Assembly: GCF_003201595.1 (NCBI RefSeq)
Contig: NZ_QJJS01000008.1
Span: 124,001-188,000, forward strand
DNA from: Sphaerotilus hippei
GTDB taxonomy: Bacteria; Pseudomonadota; Gammaproteobacteria; Burkholderiales; Burkholderiaceae_C
Length of the DNA stretch: 64,000 nucleotides
Reading direction: 5' to 3'
In this document: positions 3,408 to 39,352 of the stretch, piece by piece
Layout of the letters: every line of letters starts with the position of its first letter
Numbering within the stretch: position 1 is the stretch's first letter
Made by a program: the position numbers and the translations under genes
Notes under the pieces: model-generated
Told to the model about the DNA's origin: nothing
Databases searched by the model: none
What the model saw: the letters and a program-made list of their open reading frames with translations, nothing else

Positions 3408-4936
3408 GCGCCCAGGCCCGTGCCGGCCTCGTCGGCCGAAGGGCCCTCGCCCGCCACGTGGATGCCCAGCCGGGCCATGCGGTAGCGCATCTGCCTCAGC
3501 GTCAGCCCGAGGCTGAGTCCGGCCGCGGTGCGGTTGTTGCGCTGCAGTTCCAGCGCACGCACCAGCACCTCGCGCTCGATGCCGTCGAGGTAAGCCATCA
3601 GGTCGGCCGGCACCGCATCGACCGCCGGCACCGGTCCGGGCGCCTCGACCGGCGGCGGCAGCCCGACCGGTACGGCGCCCATCGAATCGAGGGCCAGCGG
3701 GATCGCCGCGGACGGATCACCCTCGTCGAGGCCCAGGTCCTCGACCTCGATCACCGGCGAGCTGGCCAGCGCGACCGCGCGGTACAGCAGGTTCTCCAGC
3801 TCGCGCACATTGCCCGGGAAGGGGTGGCGCCCGAGCCGCTCCAGCGCGGCGGCGGACAGCTGCACCTCGCCGGCCCGCAGGCCGCCTTCGATGCAGATGC
3901 GCTCGAGCACCCGGGCGCACAGCAGCGGCAGGTCGTCCATGCGCTCGCGCAGCGCCGGCACCCGGATCTGGATGACGTTCAGGCGGTAGAACAGGTCCTG
4001 GCGGAAACGCCCGGCCTGCACCTCCAGCGACAGGTCCTTGTGGGTCGCGCTGACGATGCGCACGTCCAGCGGCACCTCGCTGACCGCACCGACCGGGCGC
4101 ACCGCCCGCTCCTGGATGACCCGCAGCAGCTTGGACTGCATCAGCAGCGGCAGGTCACCGATCTCGTCGAGGAAGAGCGTGCCGCCCCGCGCGGCCTGAA
4201 AAAAACCGTCCCGATCCTCGTTGGCGCCGGTGAAGGCGCCCTTGCGGTAGCCGAAGAACTCGGCCTCCAGCAGCTGCTCGGGGATGGCGCCGCAGTTGAC
4301 CGCGATGAAGGGCTGGGCCGCACGGGCGCTGCACTGGTGGATCGACCGGGCGACCAGCTCCTTGCCGGTGCCCGACTCACCCTGCACCAGCACCGGGGCC
4401 ATGCTGCGGGCGACCTTGTCGACCAGCAGCCGCACGGCGGCCACCGGATGCGAGGCCCCGACCATGCTGGCCAGCGCATTGCCCGCGACCTCCGACGACG
4501 GCGCGGCCGACCGTGGCGCGCGGTTCGCGGCAGGCGCAGCCACAGCCGACGGCGAGGCCTCGCCCCGGCCCAGCGCGGCCGCCACCACGGCGCGGAAACG
4601 CTTCAGGTCGACCGGCTTGGTGAGGTAGTCGTAGGCGCCGGACTTGAGCGCCTGCACCGCGTTCTCGGCCGAGCCGTAGGCGGTGATGACGATGGTGCGT
4701 TCCGGCCGGCCGGCCTGCTCGAGCCGGCGCAGCAGCTCCAGCCCGGTGCCGTCGGGCAGGCGCATGTCGGTGATCACGGCATGGAAGCCGGACTCGGCCA
4801 GCTGCGCCCAGGCGTCCTCGACGGTGCCGGCGGACTCGACCTCGTAGCCCTCGCGCAGCAGGGTCAGCTCGTAGAGCGTGCGCAGGTCCGGTTCGTCATC
4901 GACGACCAGCAGACGGAAATTCGAGGGGGTGCTCAT
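3404..4936 (-). CDS. pilR: Sigma-54-dependent response regulator PilR
   Basis: NtrC-family activator of sigma-54 promoters, by context the partner of PilS that turns on type IV pilin transcription. The 510-residue protein has a receiver domain (1-120, phosphoacceptor D57 in [11 protein letters not shown]107 in LTKPVD), a linker, and an AAA+ domain with Walker A GESGTGKE (186-193) and the sigma-54-contacting GAFTGA loop (233-238). A C-terminal Fis-type helix-turn-helix follows ([21 protein letters not shown]). It lies 21 bp downstream of pilS. The pilSR-ampD order is familiar in Burkholderiales. The pilin genes themselves are not in this window. Confidence 0.92.
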
Positions 4937-10159: not shown

Positions 10160-10275
10160 CAAAAAAAGAGCCCCAGCCAGGGCGGCTGGGGCTGCAAAGC
10201 CTTAACGCTGTCAACACGGTAAGGCACCTGCTCAGGGAGGAAAAGCAGGGAACGCACGTCAAAAGACGTATCATT
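10160..10275 (-). ncRNA. Probable anti-hemB / betaproteobacteria toxic small RNA (BTS-like)
   Basis: This intergenic stretch upstream of hemB reads on the minus strand as a compact RNA of about 110 nt. It has a 5' hairpin ACGTC-TTTT-GACGT (10269-10256), a second hairpin CCTGCT...AGCAGG (10249-10227) whose 11-nt loop contains UCCUCCC, a third weak hairpin CCTTA...TAAGG, then a strong intrinsic terminator. Betaproteobacteria are known to carry a small RNA family encoded upstream of and antiparallel to hemB, toxic on overexpression. Position, orientation and multi-hairpin form agree with it. The assignment rests on memory of the family and lacks a covariance-model check. A TAAACT element at 10289-10284 may be its -10. 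Confidence 0.6.
10161..10193 (-). terminator. Intrinsic terminator of the antisense-to-hemB RNA
   Basis: A perfect 10-bp stem, AGCCCCAGCC and GGCTGGGGCT, with a 5-nt loop (10169-10193), is followed on the minus strand by CTTTTTTT. This is a strong rho-independent terminator for leftward transcription. There is no coding sequence on that strand for it to end, which supports the small RNA. It may also shield DUF2726 from leftward reading. Confidence 0.85.
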
Positions 10276-29414: not shown

Positions 29415-31256
<1,842 letters not shown>

Positions 31257-31280
31257 GTGCGGCTGTTGTCGCCGCGAAAA

Positions 31281-31299
31281 GTGTCGGCAGTGCTGACAC
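31281..31299. terminator. Hairpin after hsdM
   Basis: GTGTCGGC-AGT-GCTGACAC forms an 8-bp stem with one G-U pair and a 3-nt loop, 25 nt after the hsdM stop. On the minus strand it is followed by TTTT, on the plus strand by no U-tract. It may be a processing or weak termination site that separates hsdM from the Abi transcript. Confidence 0.35.
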
Positions 31300-31441
31300 C
31301 AATGCAGCATCTCGCTTGCGCTGATCGCCGACGCACATGCCCTGAACGACAATGTGCGGCAACATCCAGATCGACAAAAAAACGCTGCCACAGCGCAGCA
31401 GACGGCGGGGAAAAAATGGTGGACGGGAGTAGAATCCGCGG

Positions 31442-31510
31442 CAACAACACCCCCCAAGCCTCTCGGACAGCCCGCTGTCATGATGCTCAAACCGGGGGGT
31501 TTATCTTTTT
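31442..31510 (+). ncRNA. Candidate small structured RNA upstream of the Abi gene
   Basis: Directly before the Abi gene, TAGAAT (31430-31435) is a good -10 with no good -35. The next 70 nt can fold with ACCCCCC (31449-31455) pairing to GGGGGGT (31494-31500), enclosing a perfect hairpin GACAG-CCCG-CTGTC (31466-31479). The stretch ends in TTATCTTTTT, a terminator-like U-tract. An alternative hairpin AAACC-GGGG-GGTTT (31489-31502) competes with the long stem. Small structured RNAs are known upstream of abiF-type HEPN genes and act as RNA antitoxins in some. Here that role is inference from position, structure and the HEPN neighbour. It could instead be an attenuator. Confidence 0.42.
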
Positions 31511-31521
31511 GGGGCTGGCCC

Positions 31522-32454
31522 ATGCACTTTGACAAGCCGCCCCTCTCGCTGGCTGATCAGGTCGCCCTCTGGCGGTCGCGTGGCCTGCAGGTAGCGGATG
31601 TGCCTCGGGCCGGGCGCTACCTCGACAACATTGGCTACTACCGCCTGAGTGCGTACTGCCTGCCGTTCGAGGTGCTGCCCGCCCCAGGGGAGCGCCGGCA
31701 GCATCAGTTCATCCCGGGGACGACATTCGAGCAGGTGCTCCAGCTCTACATCTTCGACCGCAAGCTGCGGCTGCTGGTGATCGAAGCCATCGAGCGACTC
31801 GAAGTGGCGGTGCGCACCCGCTGGGCCCATGCAATGTCCTTGCGCCACGGTGCGCACGCGCACATGGACAGCGCGTGCTTCAAGGATCCGGGGTGGCACG
31901 CCAAGAATCTGGCCAACCTTGCGCGGGACATGGAGAACAGCACCGAGACCTTCGTTGTCCACTACCGCGCCACATACACCTCGCCTGTCTTGCCGCCGAT
32001 CTGGGCGGTGGTCGAGACGATGTCGCTGGGCGCGCTGTCGCACTGGGTGAAGAACACGCGCGACAACGTGGCCAAGCAGGCAATCGCCAACAGCTTGGGT
32101 CTGCCGACGGTGGAGGTGATGGAGCGTGTGTTGCACGTGCTGACGCCGATTCGCAATGCCTGTGCGCACCACAGTCGGCTGTGGAACCGGCGCTTGCCGA
32201 TGAAGCTGCCGCACATCAAGCGGCAGGCGAGCAACCTTGTGCCGCCTGAGAGTCCGCACCACCAGGCGAACTACCTCTACAACCCGCTGGCGCTGCTGGC
32301 TGCCATGTTGAACACGATGAACCCTGGCACGACGTGGGCAGCGCGCCTCGTGCGTCTGCTGGACACCGAGTTGCCTGCCGACCGGCTGTCTGCCATGGGA
32401 TTTCCACAGGACTGGCGCATACGGCCGGTCTGGCAGGAGGGCAACAAGCCATGA
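31522..32454 (+). CDS. Abi family (AbiD/AbiF-like) HEPN protein
   Basis: A 310-residue Abi_2-family protein, linked in other bacteria to abortive phage infection. The N-terminus reads PPLSLADQVALWRSRGLQV and LDNIGYYRLSAYCLPFE, with LYIFDRKLRLLVIEAIERLEVAVRTRWAH in the middle, all typical of the family. A HEPN RNase signature R-x4-H lies at R211-H216 (RNACAH). A second R-x4-H occurs at R98-H103. The ATG at 31522 is chosen because family similarity begins there. The longer open frame upstream runs through the candidate small RNA. Its stop overlaps the hsdS start (ATGA), so it is coupled to the restriction system. Predicted action is RNA cleavage on phage infection, normally held in check. Confidence 0.87.
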   Translation: MHFDKPPLSLADQVALWRSRGLQVADVPRAGRYLDNIGYYRLSAYCLPFEVLPAPGERRQHQFIPGTTFEQVLQLYIFDRKLRLLVIEAIERLEVAVRTRWAHAMSLRHGAHAHMDSACFKDPGWHAKNLANLARDMENSTETFVVHYRATYTSPVLPPIWAVVETMSLGALSHWVKNTRDNVAKQAIANSLGLPTVEVMERVLHVLTPIRNACAHHSRLWNRRLPMKLPHIKRQASNLVPPESPHHQANYLYNPLALLAAMLNTMNPGTTWAARLVRLLDTELPADRLSAMGFPQDWRIRPVWQEGNKP

Positions 32455-33815
32455 GCTTTCCCACATACGCGCACTACAAGGATTCCGGGGTCGAGTGGCT
32501 GGGCGAGGTGCCGGCGCATTGGGATTCTTTGAGATTCTCTAGGGCAATTCTTGCCATCAAAGATGGTACGCATGGCACTTTCGCTCGGACAAGCGATGGT
32601 CTCCCTTTGCTCAGTGCAAAAAACGTTTCGAACGGGCTTATCGAGACAACTTCGGCGGAAAGTTTGATTTCGGTGGCTGACCATGACGCCATCGTCGATA
32701 ACGGATTCCCAGTTCGGGGTGACATTTTGCTGACCATCGTCGGCACTATTGGGAGAGTCTGTGTTTATCCCTTCGACCACCCGATTGCATTTCAACGAAG
32801 TGTTTGCTTCGTTCGGCTATCGAGAGGGTACCGACCAACGTTTTTTTTCTATCTCATTCAGTCCAAGTTTTTCCAAGAACAGCTTCAGAGTCGATCAAAG
32901 AGTTCGGCCCAAGCTGGAATCTACATGGGCGATGTTTGTGCGACACATTTGGCTTGTCCGCCAAGCGAGATTGAACAGGATTGCATTGCGACTTTCCTCG
33001 ACCACGAAACCACCAAGCTCGACGCCCTCATCGCCGAACAACGCACCCTGATAGACCTCCTCAAGGAAAAGCGTCAGGCGGTCATCTCCCATGCCGTGAC
33101 GAAGGGGCTGGATCCGCGGGTGCCGATGAAGGATTCGGGGGTGGAGTGGCTGGGGGAGGTGCCAGCGCATTGGGAAACCAAGCGCATCAAACATCTGGTT
33201 GAGAGTTTTGAGCAAGGCTGGAGCCCGCAGTGTGAAGGCTACCCGGTCGAGTCGGACACTGAATGGGGTGTCTTGAAAGTCGGTTGTGTCAACGGTGGAA
33301 AATTTCGTCGTGAGGAAAATAAAGTCTTGCCCATGGATATCGAGCCTATTCCATCGCTTGGTATTTGTGCCGGAGATTTACTGATTTCTCGTGCAAATAC
33401 CAGAGAACTTGTCGGTAGCGCGGCTGTCGCAGATCAGAATTATTCGAACTTGCTTCTGTGTGACAAGCTTTATCGGATCAAGTTGAAGCAGCAAGACTGT
33501 GACCCGCAATTTCTCGGTATGTACCTTGGAACTGCATCGGCGCGGGGGCGGATTGAATTGTCTGCAACAGGTGCTAGTAGCTCTATGGTCAACATTGGAC
33601 AGTCAGCTATATTGGAAATGCAGTTGTCTCTACCTCCATATGGTGAACAATTGCAGATAACTTCATTTCTCAGAGAAGAAACCATTCGCTTGGGCGCTCT
33701 CACTGACGAAGCCCAAACCACCATCGCCTTACTGCAAGAGCGCCGCAGCGCGCTGATTTCCGCCGCCGTCACCGGCAAGATCGACGTGCGCCAGCACACC
33801 ACCGAGGCCGCCTGA
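32451..33815 (+). CDS. hsdS: Type I restriction-modification specificity subunit
   Basis: Recognises the bipartite DNA target for HsdM and HsdR. The 454-residue protein has two target recognition domains (about 20-180 and 240-410). Each is followed by a conserved coiled region (FLDHETTKLDALIAEQRTLIDLLKEKRQAVISHAVTKGL and the later LREETIRLGALTDEAQTTIALLQERRSALISAAVTGKI). Each half begins with the same segment KDSGVEWLGEVPAHW. GC content drops clearly in both recognition domains, as expected for exchanged segments. The gene starts on the ATGA that ends the Abi gene, with GGAGG 10 nt upstream, and overlaps the next gene by one base. Confidence 0.95.
   Translation: MSFPTYAHYKDSGVEWLGEVPAHWDSLRFSRAILAIKDGTHGTFARTSDGLPLLSAKNVSNGLIETTSAESLISVADHDAIVDNGFPVRGDILLTIVGTIGRVCVYPFDHPIAFQRSVCFVRLSRGYRPTFFFYLIQSKFFQEQLQSRSKSSAQAGIYMGDVCATHLACPPSEIEQDCIATFLDHETTKLDALIAEQRTLIDLLKEKRQAVISHAVTKGLDPRVPMKDSGVEWLGEVPAHWETKRIKHLVESFEQGWSPQCEGYPVESDTEWGVLKVGCVNGGKFRREENKVLPMDIEPIPSLGICAGDLLISRANTRELVGSAAVADQNYSNLLLCDKLYRIKLKQQDCDPQFLGMYLGTASARGRIELSATGASSSMVNIGQSAILEMQLSLPPYGEQLQITSFLREETIRLGALTDEAQTTIALLQERRSALISAAVTGKIDVRQHTTEAA
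32478..32524 (+). repeat. hsdS internal repeat, copy 1
   Basis: A 47-bp segment encoding KDSGVEWLGEVPAHW at the start of the first HsdS half. It matches copy 2 at 33129-33175 with about five mismatches. It flanks the first recognition domain and could serve as a recombination point. Confidence 0.85.
33129..33175 (+). repeat. hsdS internal repeat, copy 2
   Basis: Second copy, at the start of the second HsdS half, 651 bp after copy 1 and in the same reading frame. Recombination between the copies would delete the first recognition domain in frame. Confidence 0.85.
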
Positions 33816-34936
33816 TGCCGCTGTTCCACTACACCACCGACCGCCTGCAACCCGTGGCCGAGACCACCTTCGGCGCCGAAGGCATCCTGGAGCGCCAGGA
33901 TCTACAACGCCTGCTGCGCGAGCAGATCGACGCGCTCGGCGAGCGGCTGCTGGTCATCGCCGAAGAGTTCGGCGACTGGGCCGACAGCGCACGCCGCATC
34001 GACCTGCTCTGCCTCGACACCGACGCCAACCTCGTCGTCGTCGAACTCAAGCGCACCGAGGGCGGCGGCCACATGGAGCTGCAGGCCCTGCGCTACGCTG
34101 CCATGGTCTCCACCATGCGCTTCGAGCAACTCGTCGACACCCACGCCAAATACCTCAACCGCCTCGCCGCCGGCCCCGCCCCCGACACCGACGCCGCCCG
34201 CGCCGCCATCCTCGGCTTCCTCAACTGGACCGAAGTCGACGAAAGCCAGTTCGCCCAGGACGTGCGCATCGTGCTCGCCTCGGCCAACTTCGGCCGCGAG
34301 CTGACCACCGCCGTCATGTGGCTCAACGAGCGCAACCTCGACATCCGCTGCGTGCGCCTCAAGCTCTACCGCCTCAACGCCGAGACCGTGCTGCTCGACG
34401 TGCAGCAGATCATCCCGCTGCCGGAAGCCGCCGAGTTCCAGACCCGCATCGACGTGAAGAAGCAGGCCGAGCGGCAGGACCGTTCCGACCGCAAGGTGCT
34501 GCGGGCGCAGTTCTGGGAAGCCCTGCTGGTGGCAGCGAAACCCCAATGCGCGACCCATGCCGGACGGGCAGCGACCTCCGACGGCTGGCTGTCGGGTTCC
34601 GTGGGCCGAGCGGGTTTCGTGCTGAATTACGTGGTCCGCCGCGACGACGCGCAGGTCGAACTCTGGATCGCCCTGGGCACCGGCAAGGCTGCGCTCAACA
34701 AGGCCGCCTTCCATGGACTGAAGGCCCAGCAGGCCGCCATCGAGGCCGATTTTGGTGCGACGCTGGAGTGGCAGGAACTGCCCGAAGGCGAGGGCTGCCG
34801 CATCCGTTATGTCCTGCCGGATGGCGGGTATCACTCGCCCGCCGAGCAGTGGCCGCAGATCCAGGCCCGCATGATCGACGCCATGGTCCGGATGGACCGG
34901 GCCATGCGGACGCGGGTCGCCAGACTCGCGTTCTGA
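33815..34936 (+). CDS. DUF4268 protein with N-terminal PD-(D/E)XK nuclease-like domain
   Basis: A 373-residue protein. Residues 1-210 resemble DUF91/NucS-like endonucleases: RIDLLCLDTDANLVVVELKR supplies D63 and E77-x-K79 of a PD-(D/E)XK site. Residues 225-373 are a DUF4268 domain (LRAQFWEALLVAAKP, GRAGFVLNYVVRRDDAQVELWIALG, EWQELPEGEGCRIRY), common near restriction systems. The start overlaps the hsdS stop (TGATG), so it is translated with the specificity subunit. A role in defence is inferred from this linkage. DNA cleavage itself is not shown. Confidence 0.85.
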   Translation: MPLFHYTTDRLQPVAETTFGAEGILERQDLQRLLREQIDALGERLLVIAEEFGDWADSARRIDLLCLDTDANLVVVELKRTEGGGHMELQALRYAAMVSTMRFEQLVDTHAKYLNRLAAGPAPDTDAARAAILGFLNWTEVDESQFAQDVRIVLASANFGRELTTAVMWLNERNLDIRCVRLKLYRLNAETVLLDVQQIIPLPEAAEFQTRIDVKKQAERQDRSDRKVLRAQFWEALLVAAKPQCATHAGRAATSDGWLSGSVGRAGFVLNYVVRRDDAQVELWIALGTGKAALNKAAFHGLKAQQAAIEADFGATLEWQELPEGEGCRIRYVLPDGGYHSPAEQWPQIQARMIDAMVRMDRAMRTRVARLAF

Positions 34937-34972
34937 CCCTAGATCTGCGACCGACTGGCTGTACGCCTGGCC

Positions 34973-36121
34973 TCACCGCGTCAACAACTCGATGTAGGTA
35001 CCGTAGCTGTAGATCCGGTTTTTTTTCTGGCCTGTTTGCTCGGTCACGATGGTCAACTGCTCCAGCAACTGGACGGCCGCGTTGGCGGTGGGAAAGCTGG
35101 TGTCGAGTTTTTGCCGCGCCTGCTCGACCGTGAAGCGCGGCATCAGCGGCAGCAACTCGAACAGGCGGTAGCTGGCTGGACCTGCTTTCGGGTGGGCTAG
35201 CAATCGGCGGCGGTCGGTGTTGACCAGACTCGCCACGGCGATGATGCTGCGCTCGGCTTCCTCGGCCGCTCGACTCACGCCTTCCAGGAAGAAACCGACC
35301 CAGCCCTCCCAGTCGCCCTCGGTGCGGATGTTCGACAAGCGCCGGTAGTACTCGGATTGGTGCTGCTTCAAATAGCCGCTGAGATAAAGCAGCGGTTCGG
35401 ACAACAGACCCCATTGCTCCATCAGGGCACCGATCAGCAGCCGGCCCAGGCGCCCGTTGCCGTCCAGGAAGGGGTGGATGGTCTCGAACTGTGCATGTAC
35501 CAGTGCCACGCGCACCAGCGGTGGCAGAGTGGCCGGGGTCTGGTGGATGAAGTGTTCCAGGGCGGTCAACAGCTCGGGCACTTGTTCGGCCGGAGGGGGA
35601 ACGAACGCAGCGTTGCCGGGGCGGGTACCACCGATCCAGTTCTGCGACCGGCGCAGTTCGCCCGGCTGCTTGCCTGCCCCCCGTGTGCCGTCCAGCAGCA
35701 GGCGGTGTGCATTGCACAGCAGGCGCACACTCAGTGGAAGCCCGGTGGGAGAGCGCATCTCGGACTGCACGTGGCGAAACGCGCGCAGGTAGTTGGTGAC
35801 TTCCTCGACATCGTCGGCGTTGTGCACGGCAAAGCCGGCTTCCTGGTCGAACACGTCGGTCAGCGTGGCCTGCGTGCCTTCGATTTGCGAGGTGAGCAGG
35901 GCCTCCTTGCGCACCGCGCCGTACAGCAGCCAATCGACCGACGGCACAAGCCCCGACACACCGGCCAGCCGGGCCAGCGCCAGCTCGGCCAGATGGTTGG
36001 CTGCTTGTACGGCTTCCATCGCCAGTGCAGGGGAGTCCGGAGGCAAGGGGTGCGGCACAAAGGCCTTGACCTCTTCGCCGAGGGTGGTGGTGCGGGCGTG
36101 ACGCCCCGTGATGCGCTTCAT
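34973..36121 (-). CDS. Fic family protein, class II, with C-terminal winged helix
   Basis: Fic enzymes transfer AMP or other nucleotide parts to target proteins. The 382-residue protein has the intact active site H216-PFLDGNGRLGR. Its N-terminal inhibitory motif is T77-SQI-E81-G in LLTSQIEGTQ, which makes it class II (inhibitor within the same chain). A C-terminal winged helix (about 315-382: ARQKLDTSFPTANAAVQLLEQLTIVTE, IYSYGTYIELL) could bind DNA. It is on the opposite strand to the restriction genes and splits hsdR from hsdM-hsdS. It faces hsdR across 123 bp that contain a perfect palindrome, suggesting autoregulation. Confidence 0.92.
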   Translation of the reverse strand: MKRITGRHARTTTLGEEVKAFVPHPLPPDSPALAMEAVQAANHLAELALARLAGVSGLVPSVDWLLYGAVRKEALLTSQIEGTQATLTDVFDQEAGFAVHNADDVEEVTNYLRAFRHVQSEMRSPTGLPLSVRLLCNAHRLLLDGTRGAGKQPGELRRSQNWIGGTRPGNAAFVPPPAEQVPELLTALEHFIHQTPATLPPLVRVALVHAQFETIHPFLDGNGRLGRLLIGALMEQWGLLSEPLLYLSGYLKQHQSEYYRRLSNIRTEGDWEGWVGFFLEGVSRAAEEAERSIIAVASLVNTDRRRLLAHPKAGPASYRLFELLPLMPRFTVEQARQKLDTSFPTANAAVQLLEQLTIVTEQTGQKKNRIYSYGTYIELLTR

Positions 36122-36244: not shown

Positions 36245-39200
36245 ATGTCACTGCACCGAGAACATCACTTCGAGTCCGAGATCTGCGCGCATCTGGCGAC
36301 CAACGGCTGGCTCCACGCCGCAGGTGACGCCGCACAGTTCGACCGCACCCACGGCCTGTTCCCGCCCGACCTGCTCGCCTGGATCGAAGCCACCCAGCCC
36401 GACGCCTGGACGCGCCTCACCAAGACGCACGGCCCCGCGCTGCCCCGGGTGCTGGCCGAGCGGGTGCGCAAGAGCCTGAACGAGCGCGGCACGCTGGACG
36501 TGCTGCGCCGGGGCGTGGAGATGCTAGGCCTGCGCGAGCCGCTGATGCTGGCCCAGTTCAAGCCGGCGCTGGCGCTGAACGCCACGACGCGCGCCCACTA
36601 CGAGGCCAACCGCCTGCGCGTGGTGCGGCAGGTCACGCACTCGCCCAACAACCCGAAAGCCGAGCTGGACCTGGTGCTGTTCCTCAACGGCCTCGCGGTG
36701 GCCACGGTGGAGCTGAAGTCCGACTTCACGCAATCCGTCCACGACGCGGTGGACCAGTACCGCTACGACCGCCACCCGCAGCCGAAGGGCGGTTTGCTGG
36801 AGCCGCTGCTCGGCTTCCCGGGCGGGGCGCTCGTGCATTTCGCGGTCAGCCAGTCCGAGGTGATGATGGCCACACGGCTGGCGGGCCCGGCCACGGTGTT
36901 CCTGCCGTTCAACCGAGGCCACGACGGCGGCGCCGGCAACGCGCCCAACCCCGAGGGCTTCGCCACCGCCTACCTGTGGGAAGAGGTCTGGGCGCGGGAA
37001 AGCTGGCTCGACATCCTGCACCGCTACCTGATCGGCAAGCGCGACGACAAGAAGCAGCTCAAGAGCGTGGTCTTCCCGCGCTACCACCAGCTCGACGCCA
37101 CGCGCCGACTCGTGGCCGACGTGCTGACGCAGGGGCCGGGGCAGCGCTACCTGATCCAGCACTCGGCCGGCTCCGGCAAGACCAACTCCATCGCCTGGAC
37201 CGCCCACTTCCTCGCGGACCTGCACGACGCCGAGCACCGCAAGCTGTTCGACAGCGTGCTGGTGGTGAGCGACCGCAACGTGCTGGACGTGCAGTTGCAG
37301 GAAGCCCTGTTCGACTTCGAGCGCAACGCCGGCGTGGTGGCGAGCATCACGAACGAACACGGCGCCAAGAGCGCGCAGCTCTCGCAGGCGCTGAAGGACG
37401 GCAAGAAGATCATCGTCTGCACCATCCAGACCTTCCCATTCGCCTTGAAGGCCGTGCAGGAACTCGCGGCCACCGAGGGCAAGCGCTTCGCCGTGATCGC
37501 CGACGAGGCGCACAGCTCGCAGACCGGCGAGGCCGCGGCGAAGCTCAAGACGCTGCTGTCGGCGGAGGAATGGGCGGACCTGCAGGACGGCGGCGCCGTG
37601 GACGCCAACGACATCGCCGCCGCCAACATGGCCGCCCGCGCCGGGGACAGCGGGCTGACGTATGTCGCCTTCACCGCCACGCCCAAGGCCAAGACGCTGG
37701 AGCTGTTCGGCCGCAAGGGCGCCGACGGCCTGCCGCAGCCGTTCCACGTCTACTCCATGCGCCAGGCGATCGAGGAAGGCTTCATCCTCGACGTGCTGAA
37801 GAACTACACCAGCTACCAGCTCGCCTTCAAGCTCGCCCACGACGGCAAGACCTGCGACGAGGCGCAGGTCGAGCGCAGCGCGGCGATGAAAGGGATCATG
37901 CAGTGGGTCCGGCTGCACCCGTACAACATCGCCCAGAAGGTGCAGGTCGTCGTCGAGCACTACCGCGAGAACGTGCAGCCGCTGCTGCAGGGGCGGGCCA
38001 AGGCGATGGTGGTGGTCGGTTCGCGCAAGGAGGCGGTGCGCTGGCAGAAGGCCATCCGCGCCTACATCAGCCGCCAGCACTACCCGCTGGGCGTGCTGAC
38101 CGCGTTCTCGGGCGAGGTGGACGACCCGGACAGCTACCCGGACGCGGTCACCGAGGCGTCCAAGGAGCTGAACCCGGGCCTCAAGGGGCGCGACATCCGG
38201 GATGCGTTCGCCGCGCCTGAGTTCCACCTGCTGCTGGTCGCCAACAAGTTCCAGACCGGGTTTGACCAGCCGCTGCTGTGCGGCATGTATGTCGACAAGG
38301 TGCTCGGCGGCATCCAGGCGGTGCAGACGCTGTCACGGCTGAACCGGTCGCATCCGGGCAAGGACACAACCTACATCCTCGACTTCGTCAACGAGCCGGC
38401 CGAGATCCTCAAGGCTTTCAAGACCTACTACCAGACAGCCGAGCTGGAAGCCGCCACCGACCCGCACCTGGTCTACGACCTGCGGGCGAAGCTGGACGCC
38501 GCCGGCCACTACGACGACTTCGAGGTGAACCGCGTCGCCAAGGTGGACCTGGACCCGCTGGGCACGCAAAAGCAGCTCGACGCGGCCATTGCCCCGGTGG
38601 CCGACCGCCTGCTGCGGCGCTACAAGGCCGCGCAGTTGGAGCGGATCGCCGCGCTGGAGCGGGGTGACGACAAGACCGCCGCGCAGGCGAAGGACACGCT
38701 GGACGCCCTGGTGCTGTTCAAGAACGACATGGGCGCCTTCGTGCGGCTGTACAGCTTCCTCAGCCAGATCTTCGACTACGGCAACACCGACATCGAGAAG
38801 CGTTTCCTGTTCTTCAAGCGGCTGATCCCGCTGCTGGAATTCGGCCGGGAGCGCGACACGGTGGACCTCAGCAAGGTGGTGCTGACCCACCACACCCTGA
38901 AGAACCACGGCCGACAAGCCATGGGGCTCGACGTCGACGGCCGCTACACGCTGCCGCCCATCGACGCGGTGGGCAGTGGCGCGGTGCAGGAAAAGGAAAA
39001 GACCTACCTGGACGAGATCATCCAGAAGGTGAACGGCCTGTTCGAAGGCGAGCTGACCGACGGCGACCAGCTCGTCTACGTCAACGGCGTGCTCCGGGGC
39101 AAGCTGCTGGAGAACCAGATGCTGATGCAGCAGGCCGCGAGCAACACCAAGGAGCAGTTCGCCAACTCGCCCGACCTGAAGGATGCGCTGATGCACGCCA

Positions 39201-39352
39201 TCATGGACGCGCTGGACGCCCACACCACGATGAGCACGCAGGCGCTGGGCTCGGAGCGGGTGCGCGATGGGCTCAAGGACATCCTGCTGGGGCCGGCACG
39301 GTTGTATGAGGCGCTGCGGGCGCGGTCTGGGACTGGGGCGTTGTCCAGTTAG
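36245..39352 (+). CDS. hsdR: Type I restriction endonuclease, R subunit
   Basis: ATP-dependent translocase and nuclease of the type I complex. The ATG at 36245, preceded by GGGGGA, gives 1035 residues. The N-terminal nuclease domain has D142 and E156-LK158 (AELDLVLFLNG...VATVELKSD). The two RecA-like motor domains show Walker A HSAGSGKTNS (about 306-315), DEAH (420-423, VIADEAHSS), FTATP and the motif VI region QTLSRLNRSHPGK. The C-terminal helical part contacts HsdM. The frame is intact, so the system is probably functional. It lies 1.3 kb beyond the DUF4268 gene, with its own promoter region shared with fic. Confidence 0.95.
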   Translation: MSLHREHHFESEICAHLATNGWLHAAGDAAQFDRTHGLFPPDLLAWIEATQPDAWTRLTKTHGPALPRVLAERVRKSLNERGTLDVLRRGVEMLGLREPLMLAQFKPALALNATTRAHYEANRLRVVRQVTHSPNNPKAELDLVLFLNGLAVATVELKSDFTQSVHDAVDQYRYDRHPQPKGGLLEPLLGFPGGALVHFAVSQSEVMMATRLAGPATVFLPFNRGHDGGAGNAPNPEGFATAYLWEEVWARESWLDILHRYLIGKRDDKKQLKSVVFPRYHQLDATRRLVADVLTQGPGQRYLIQHSAGSGKTNSIAWTAHFLADLHDAEHRKLFDSVLVVSDRNVLDVQLQEALFDFERNAGVVASITNEHGAKSAQLSQALKDGKKIIVCTIQTFPFALKAVQELAATEGKRFAVIADEAHSSQTGEAAAKLKTLLSAEEWADLQDGGAVDANDIAAANMAARAGDSGLTYVAFTATPKAKTLELFGRKGADGLPQPFHVYSMRQAIEEGFILDVLKNYTSYQLAFKLAHDGKTCDEAQVERSAAMKGIMQWVRLHPYNIAQKVQVVVEHYRENVQPLLQGRAKAMVVVGSRKEAVRWQKAIRAYISRQHYPLGVLTAFSGEVDDPDSYPDAVTEASKELNPGLKGRDIRDAFAAPEFHLLLVANKFQTGFDQPLLCGMYVDKVLGGIQAVQTLSRLNRSHPGKDTTYILDFVNEPAEILKAFKTYYQTAELEAATDPHLVYDLRAKLDAAGHYDDFEVNRVAKVDLDPLGTQKQLDAAIAPVADRLLRRYKAAQLERIAALERGDDKTAAQAKDTLDALVLFKNDMGAFVRLYSFLSQIFDYGNTDIEKRFLFFKRLIPLLEFGRERDTVDLSKVVLTHHTLKNHGRQAMGLDVDGRYTLPPIDAVGSGAVQEKEKTYLDEIIQKVNGLFEGELTDGDQLVYVNGVLRGKLLENQMLMQQAASNTKEQFANSPDLKDALMHAIMDALDAHTTMSTQALGSERVRDGLKDILLGPARLYEALRARSGTGALSS

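Follow-up and report, generated by a model that had tools for sequence, protein, structure and literature searches.

An AbiF-type toxin gene with its own abiF RNA between hsdM and hsdS in a type I restriction operon of Sphaerotilus hippei

What controls a gene for a HEPN ribonuclease-type toxin that lies inside a restriction-modification (R-M) operon? This question is raised by a stretch of 64,000 nucleotides (nt) from Sphaerotilus hippei (contig NZ_QJJS01000008.1, positions 124,001 to 188,000; hereafter the window, with coordinates counted from its first letter), in which an abiF gene (31522-32454, plus strand) separates hsdM from hsdS of a type I operon. A preliminary description of this DNA had proposed that the gene is preceded by a structured RNA of the abiF type acting as an antitoxin, and that the unit is nested between the two restriction genes and coupled to hsdS by ATGA. 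The nesting is as described, with the end of hsdM at 31256 and the start of hsdS at 32451, where its start codon shares the ATGA (32451-32454, plus strand) with the stop codon of abiF. Our analysis indicates that the unit is very probably an AbiF toxin with its own abiF RNA as antitoxin, a self-contained cassette inserted at the hsdM/hsdS joint. The basis here is the family and structure of the RNA, the AbiF family, its predicted fold and motif, and the position, coupling and recurrence of the unit. The abiF RNA, the AbiF toxin and the nesting habit have already been described; the locus is a clear new example, not a new system.

The RNA belongs to a known family. Rfam family RF03085 (abiF RNA) matches positions 31450-31500 with 41.5 bits against a gathering cut-off of 37 (E 3.5e-4 in a scan of all 64 kilobases against 4227 families), so that the Rfam check proposed in the preliminary description came out positive, and no other place in the genome matches RF03085 at E <= 0.001. 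Just upstream of abiF, with 22 nt from 31499 to the AbiF start, this core lies within an extended element at 31442-31513 on the plus strand. An outer helix of 7 base pairs (31449-31455 paired with 31494-31500) surrounds an inner helix of 3 (31457-31459 with 31485-31487) and a hairpin of 5 (31466-31470 with 31475-31479), and on the 3' side of the outer helix comes the U-rich tract TTTATCTTTTT (31500-31510), a possible attenuator or 3' end of the RNA. The 7-base-pair long-range stem enclosing a hairpin and the U-rich end had both been predicted from the sequence, and both are present. The proposed antitoxin role also fits the family, a member of which acts as an antitoxin (PMC12373285). Both Rfam and our covariance model find one abiF motif only at 31442-31513, compared with two copies in the loci L122 and L176; the unit lacks the tandem-repeat RNA array of the classic ToxIN type III layout.

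The case for this RNA is one of conservation and covariation, not of folding energy. Genome contigs were searched with an alignment of 8 AbiF proteins, and the best 80 of 580 relatives were taken as the locus sample; percentages over these 80 loci describe near relatives, not AbiF as a whole. The same RNA element was found upstream of AbiF in the DNA of the sampled loci. Supplied with no structure, RNAalifold gave the Rfam fold of 10 pairs, with changes on both sides in 9 of them: all three pairs of the inner helix and six of the seven pairs of the outer helix, the remaining one being invariant. Over 76 distinct alignment rows, 99.1% of 760 cells are paired and 102 cells carry double changes, against 30.7 +/- 4.3 in shuffles, whereas control structures with slid partners left only 28.7-53.3% paired. 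Absence of covariation or conservation across homologous loci had been named beforehand among the things that would refute the proposal, and the opposite was found. A covariance model built from the alignment matched the RNA in 80 of 80 loci (a circular result for the 79 in the model; L100 is partial) and gave the window 59.4 bits, though the window itself belongs to the model. In a less circular test, the model matched 12 of the 27 order-level Abi_2 loci besides the window; these are 11 distinct places, as L019 and L028 overlap. Two of the order-level loci have counterparts in the model: L003 coincides with L032, and L007 nearly duplicates L109. RF03085 itself was matched at E <= 0.001 in 10 of 398 genomes of the phylum (the window's own included), four of them above the cut-off, and in none of 14 control genomes. 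Separately, a second abiF RNA (59.2 bits) was seen at 11456-11516 of L092, about 580 nt downstream of the AbiF match.

Several results weigh against this reading. The folding energy of the RNA is ordinary, with a z of -1.5 for 31442-31513 (17 of 200 shuffles equally stable) and of -1.8 for 31450-31500 (8 of 200); with such values, single-sequence folding energy was discarded as support. The covariance model found no match in 15 of the 27 order-level Abi_2 loci (L009, L010, L012, L014-L018, L020-L023 and L025-L027), and in the 12 that remain when L009, L023 and L025 are left out, an Rfam rescan at E up to 5 gave no abiF RNA either. L009 covers only the latter portion of a gene; the beginning of that gene, on another contig of the same genome (L030), has the RNA. 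The idea that every Abi_2 gene comes with this RNA was rejected on these 15 loci, and more distant Abi_2 proteins are often without a detectable abiF RNA. Finally, a promoter scan of 31200-31600 found none, which makes separate transcription of the RNA no more than putative.

The signals around the RNA were compared between loci. The -10-like TAGAAT noted in the preliminary description stands at 31430-31435 on the plus strand, but its -35 partner is weak: the best pairing in the window, GGGAAA/TAGAAT, agrees at 8 of 12 positions, and neither a consensus -35 nor a consensus promoter was found there. Of 80 RNAs, from the window and 79 loci, 46 have TANNNT 3-10 nt before their CAACAA, where shuffling the single bases of the upstream 50 nt would give 15.7; the excess is seen both in nested loci (10 of 17 against 2.1) and in the others (36 of 63 against 13.5); full promoter sites (>= 9 of 12, right spacing) occur in 21 of 80 against 1.2. 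Of the promoter elements in the window, only the -10 appears credible, through this conservation. On the other side of the RNA, the 15 nt after the outer helix contain on average 8.7 T in the 80 RNAs, where the local background is 3.4. A terminator scan with loops limited to 3-8 gave no plus-strand terminator; the outer helix and U-rich tract are conserved nonetheless. A terminator-like hairpin with a T run also lies on the minus strand at 31382-31401, downstream of hsdM and ahead of the RNA, with no minus-strand gene assigned to it.

The protein is AbiF by domain, motif and predicted fold. The 310-amino-acid product scores 187.6 bits for Abi_2 (AbiD/F) against a Pfam cut-off of 25.6; Pfam gives this domain alone, with no ABC ATPase or NTPase. 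The R-x4-H HEPN motif that had been read at R211-H216 was confirmed as R211-N-A-C-A-H216 (RNACAH, 32152-32169, plus strand) in the frame from 31522, and R[N/H/D]xxxH is retained in 87 of 87 aligned AbiF rows. The predicted fold matches PbAbiF (PDB 8VZ6) over nearly the whole protein at 34% identity, with the catalytic R and H aligned, and this was the only convincing match among those listed by Foldseek/VIA-align. The AbiF lineage has been proposed as the precursor of Cas13 (PMC12373285, PMC12737573); Cas13 chains were absent among the structural matches listed, which excludes nothing. In a plasmid collection, relatives occurred in 406 of 72,556 records, all below 60% identity, with no near copy there.

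Is the restriction operon part of the control? Profiles grown from the window's hsd proteins at E 1e-8, which can miss distant R-M types, placed hsdM directly before RNA-abiF and hsdS after it in 16 of the 80 loci (L040, L043, L047, L054, L061, L062, L064, L065, L066, L067, L072, L076, L085, L095, L096 and L105) and hsdS directly before RNA-abiF in 5 (L051, L052, L057, L068 and L070); given the limits of the profiles and some short stretches, both counts are lower bounds. Some hsd gene lies elsewhere in the fetched stretch in 6 more (L048, L063, L080, L084, L088 and L091), and none was found in the fetched stretch of 53, some of them short. Tallies by Pfam, which take the longest nearby frame and can be misled by shadow frames, gave N6_Mtase upstream in 16 of 77 loci and Methylase_S in 4 of 77; downstream, Methylase_S was seen in 5 of 78, below the profile count partly through such frames. 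In 14 of the 17 nested loci (the window and the 16), abiF passes by ATGA into the hsdS position. The exceptions are L085, where another gene stands between abiF and hsdS and the ATGA leads into a gene other than hsdS, and L040 and L054, which have no ATGA; in L040, hsdS begins 555 nt on. In a quickly built tree with 87 AbiF rows (supported by the Shimodaira-Hasegawa-like approximate likelihood ratio test only, and with a long branch for L006), the 19 nested rows, that is, the 17 plus L005 and L008, which a neighbour check showed to be nested, require 13 parsimony changes, at least 7 of them forced by starred branches; these can be gains or losses. Nested rows cluster more than chance would predict, with 2 of 500 shuffles needing as few changes, and the order-level rows L003, L004, L006 and L007 have no hsdM, hsdS or hsdR within the stretch. 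A single co-evolved clade of R-M-nested AbiF was rejected, with 13 changes for 19 rows. Nesting is recurrent and real, and the unit has repeatedly been gained at, or lost from, the hsdM/hsdS position. Since abiF RNA adjoins AbiF in the 80 nearest loci, with hsd neighbours or not, the control of AbiF does not seem to need the R-M genes, and its likeliest regulator would be its RNA, not the restriction enzyme. The further idea of the preliminary description, a back-up suicide module that would be lost or set free upon disturbance of the restriction operon, gains no support from these results and would at most be a conjecture.

The joint can also be viewed from the side of the host operon. Searching 399 genomes of the order with the window's hsdM gave a match at E <= 1e-60 in 51, and 30 loci among the matches listed were compared. 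In 15 of these, hsdM runs straight into hsdS by direct overlap, and in 10 there is cargo between them: RNA and abiF in the window (L120), L127 and L149; by Pfam, YhcG/DUF1016 in L121, L126 and L135 (the last cut short, with a GIY-YIG gene), RhuM in L130 and a MazE-like gene with PIN in L139; an unnamed frame in L147; and a decayed abiF unit with PIN in L122. By eye, a YhcG-like start remains ahead of the abiF unit of L127. In three loci hsdS is absent or not seen (L124, L143 and L148), L124 having a Phd-like frame just below the Pfam cut-off and PIN, and two end with the contig (L144 and L146). A class-level search of 369 genomes, 25 of them with an hsdM match at E <= 1e-150, added 22 loci: 13 direct joints with an hsdS match and one, L182, without; a 133-nt gap before hsdS in L167; contig ends in L172 and L178; and cargo in five, namely RNA and a Fic gene in L163, Fic in L168, two RNAs with abiF in L176, and RhuM in L179 and L180. 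No hsdS lies within the fetched stretch of L168, L176, L179 or L180. The hsdM/hsdS joint looks like a general insertion site with varied cargo.

Some of this cargo appears to be remnants of the same unit. In L122, which is the same as L151 and whose hsdM is about 82% identical to that of the window, two abiF RNAs (63.3 and 46.1 bits), the second with a TTGACA-TATAAT pair in front, precede an AbiF start that runs for 29 codons before a stop. Next come a PIN gene, accompanied by a small HicB/Arc-like frame below Pfam cut-offs, and then hsdS. L163 has no abiF gene at its hsdM/hsdS joint; it carries an abiF-like RNA at 3581-3637 (28.1 bits) with TATAAT just upstream, and then a small frame and the Fic-family gene. 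In these loci, the antitoxin RNA seems to outlive the toxin.

Based on these findings, we consider how the unit may work. In C. difficile, AbiF_Cd is toxic and RCd22 represses it by early termination and protein binding (PMC12373285). Like that system of phi027, the window has an Abi_2/AbiF HEPN toxin, an abiF-motif RNA directly upstream, RNxxxH and a U-rich end between the two; because the same parts stand in the same order, the same mechanism is the best reading. There are differences: the C. difficile system lies in a prophage lysis module and the present unit in an R-M operon, and where the window has a single abiF motif, RCd22 contains two, along with a terminator hairpin that is separate from them. 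The PbAbiF-AbiFr pair, from Prevotellaceae, resembles the window in predicted fold and catalytic residues; its structure and the loss of activity in a catalytic variant have been tested (per PMC12373285), and in 8VZ6 AbiFr is bound to AbiF and inhibits its RNase (reviewed in PMC12737573). In S. hippei, the abiF RNA would most likely be made in excess, from a promoter just upstream or by read-through from hsdM. It would fold into the conserved two-helix structure, bind an AbiF dimer and block the HEPN RNase site, while the outer helix and U-rich tail would probably also reduce read-through into abiF and hence into the coupled hsdS. Upon infection or transcription shut-off, supply of the RNA would lag, leaving AbiF to cleave RNA and stop growth. 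RNA binding, toxicity and neutralisation at this locus are expected from the tested relatives; the trigger, phage defence and the effect on hsdS are what we infer beyond them.

Other explanations place the control elsewhere. HEPN genes in R-M operons were proposed by Anantharaman et al. to act in the manner of PrrC (PMC3710099): the R-M complex would hold AbiF inactive, phage anti-restriction would free it, and the RNA would be secondary. The nesting, recurring in 16 of 80 loci with at least 7 forced changes on the tree and ATGA into hsdS in 14 of 17, suits such a second line of defence, but the same AbiF and RNA occur without an hsd gene in the 53 stretches mentioned above, and the protein has the Abi_2 domain only, with no ABC ATPase. 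In its own operon, moreover, PrrC follows hsdS instead of standing between it and hsdM. PrrC-PrrI does share with the window a HEPN nuclease within a type I R-M operon; unlike AbiF with its cognate RNA, however, PrrC has an ABC NTPase of its own, and it is the R-M enzyme that holds it (PMC3710099). As the RNA comes with AbiF regardless of hsd neighbours, we rank RNA control above R-M control and regard the latter as quite unlikely. Nor is the RNA likely to act in cis alone, attenuating abiF and hsdS without binding AbiF. Its outer helix and the 8.7 T against 3.4 in the tail would suit that role, and in C. difficile RCd22 with its terminator strongly lowers downstream expression (PMC12373285), but conservation extends to the inner helix and to flanking unpaired bases, for which a terminator has no need, and in the relative that has been tested neutralisation works in trans and the RNA is bound directly; we judge a purely cis-acting RNA very improbable.

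Two further explanations are compatible with an RNA-controlled toxin and concern why it is found where it is. The unit may simply be cargo at a site that insertions favour, AbiF having no functional link to the R-M genes. The joint accepts many unrelated inserts (YhcG, RhuM, Fic and PIN modules) and the neighbours of AbiF elsewhere are very mixed; on the other hand, distant lineages repeat both the position and the ATGA coupling, which speaks for a preferred site without speaking for a shared mechanism. We find such chance co-location plausible, though we would not assume it. Alternatively, the unit may be selected for addiction, retaining the R-M operon or itself, as its loss would remove the presumably labile RNA before the toxin. 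That L122/L151 keep two RNAs with a broken abiF and L163 an RNA-like match without abiF is consistent with this, loss of the toxin first being the safe order, and other cargo at the joint includes protein toxin-antitoxin-like pairs. The order of decay in two loci is nevertheless weak evidence, and a short RNA may persist by chance; addiction is possible but doubtful.

The operon around the unit has open frames for all three type I genes. On the plus strand lie hsdM (29415-31256; Pfam N6_Mtase 195.6 bits and HsdM_N 91.2 bits, PADLOC MTase_I 2.4e-270), hsdS (32451-33815; Pfam Methylase_S, PADLOC Specificity_I 1.4e-122) and hsdR (36245-39352; Pfam SWI2_SNF2, ResIII and HSDR_N, PADLOC REase_I 4.9e-31). 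The interval between hsdS and hsdR (33815-36121) likewise holds cargo, identified by Pfam and PADLOC: a DUF4268/PDC-S11 gene (33815-34936, plus strand) and a Fic/DOC-family gene of the SoFic model (34973-36121, minus strand). Elsewhere in the window, Rfam gave an anti-hemB RNA at 10162-10251 on the minus strand (62.8 bits), unrelated to the abiF unit. A toxin-antitoxin pair as cargo inside hsd genes is also known from DarTG2 in a type I R-M system (PMC12255303), which, unlike the window, has a protein antitoxin, the hsdS/hsdR site and the repressor RptR; that report calls the hsdS/hsdR site a potential recombination hotspot and cites work on defences embedded in other defences. Abi2/AbiF/AbiD genes have been listed as "Embedded in R-M operons" (PMC3710099), which makes them, like the present gene, HEPN Abi genes within such an operon; the available portion of that entry makes no mention of an RNA or of the hsdM/hsdS joint. 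In the literature searched, a search that was not exhaustive, we found no description of an abiF RNA inside an R-M operon.

What is added here is the recurrent hsdM/hsdS position, an RNA at each nested copy examined, and evidence that the joint takes cargo. It could be that the abiF RNA, besides being an antitoxin, is a gate for the restriction operon: its helix and U-rich end stand between hsdM and the translationally coupled abiF and hsdS, such that HsdS would be made only upon read-through of the RNA, on the messenger of the toxin; we consider this unlikely, but it would have consequences. The ratio of RNA to AbiF would report the integrity of the operon, raising HsdS would mean raising the toxin too, and the leftover RNAs in L122/L151 and L163 would be safe exits from addiction. 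The locus offers a clean, testable case of a HEPN toxin, putatively neutralised by RNA, within the overlapping-gene chain of a restriction operon, and if the RNA does gate hsdS, abortive infection and restriction would be tied together by a single small RNA.
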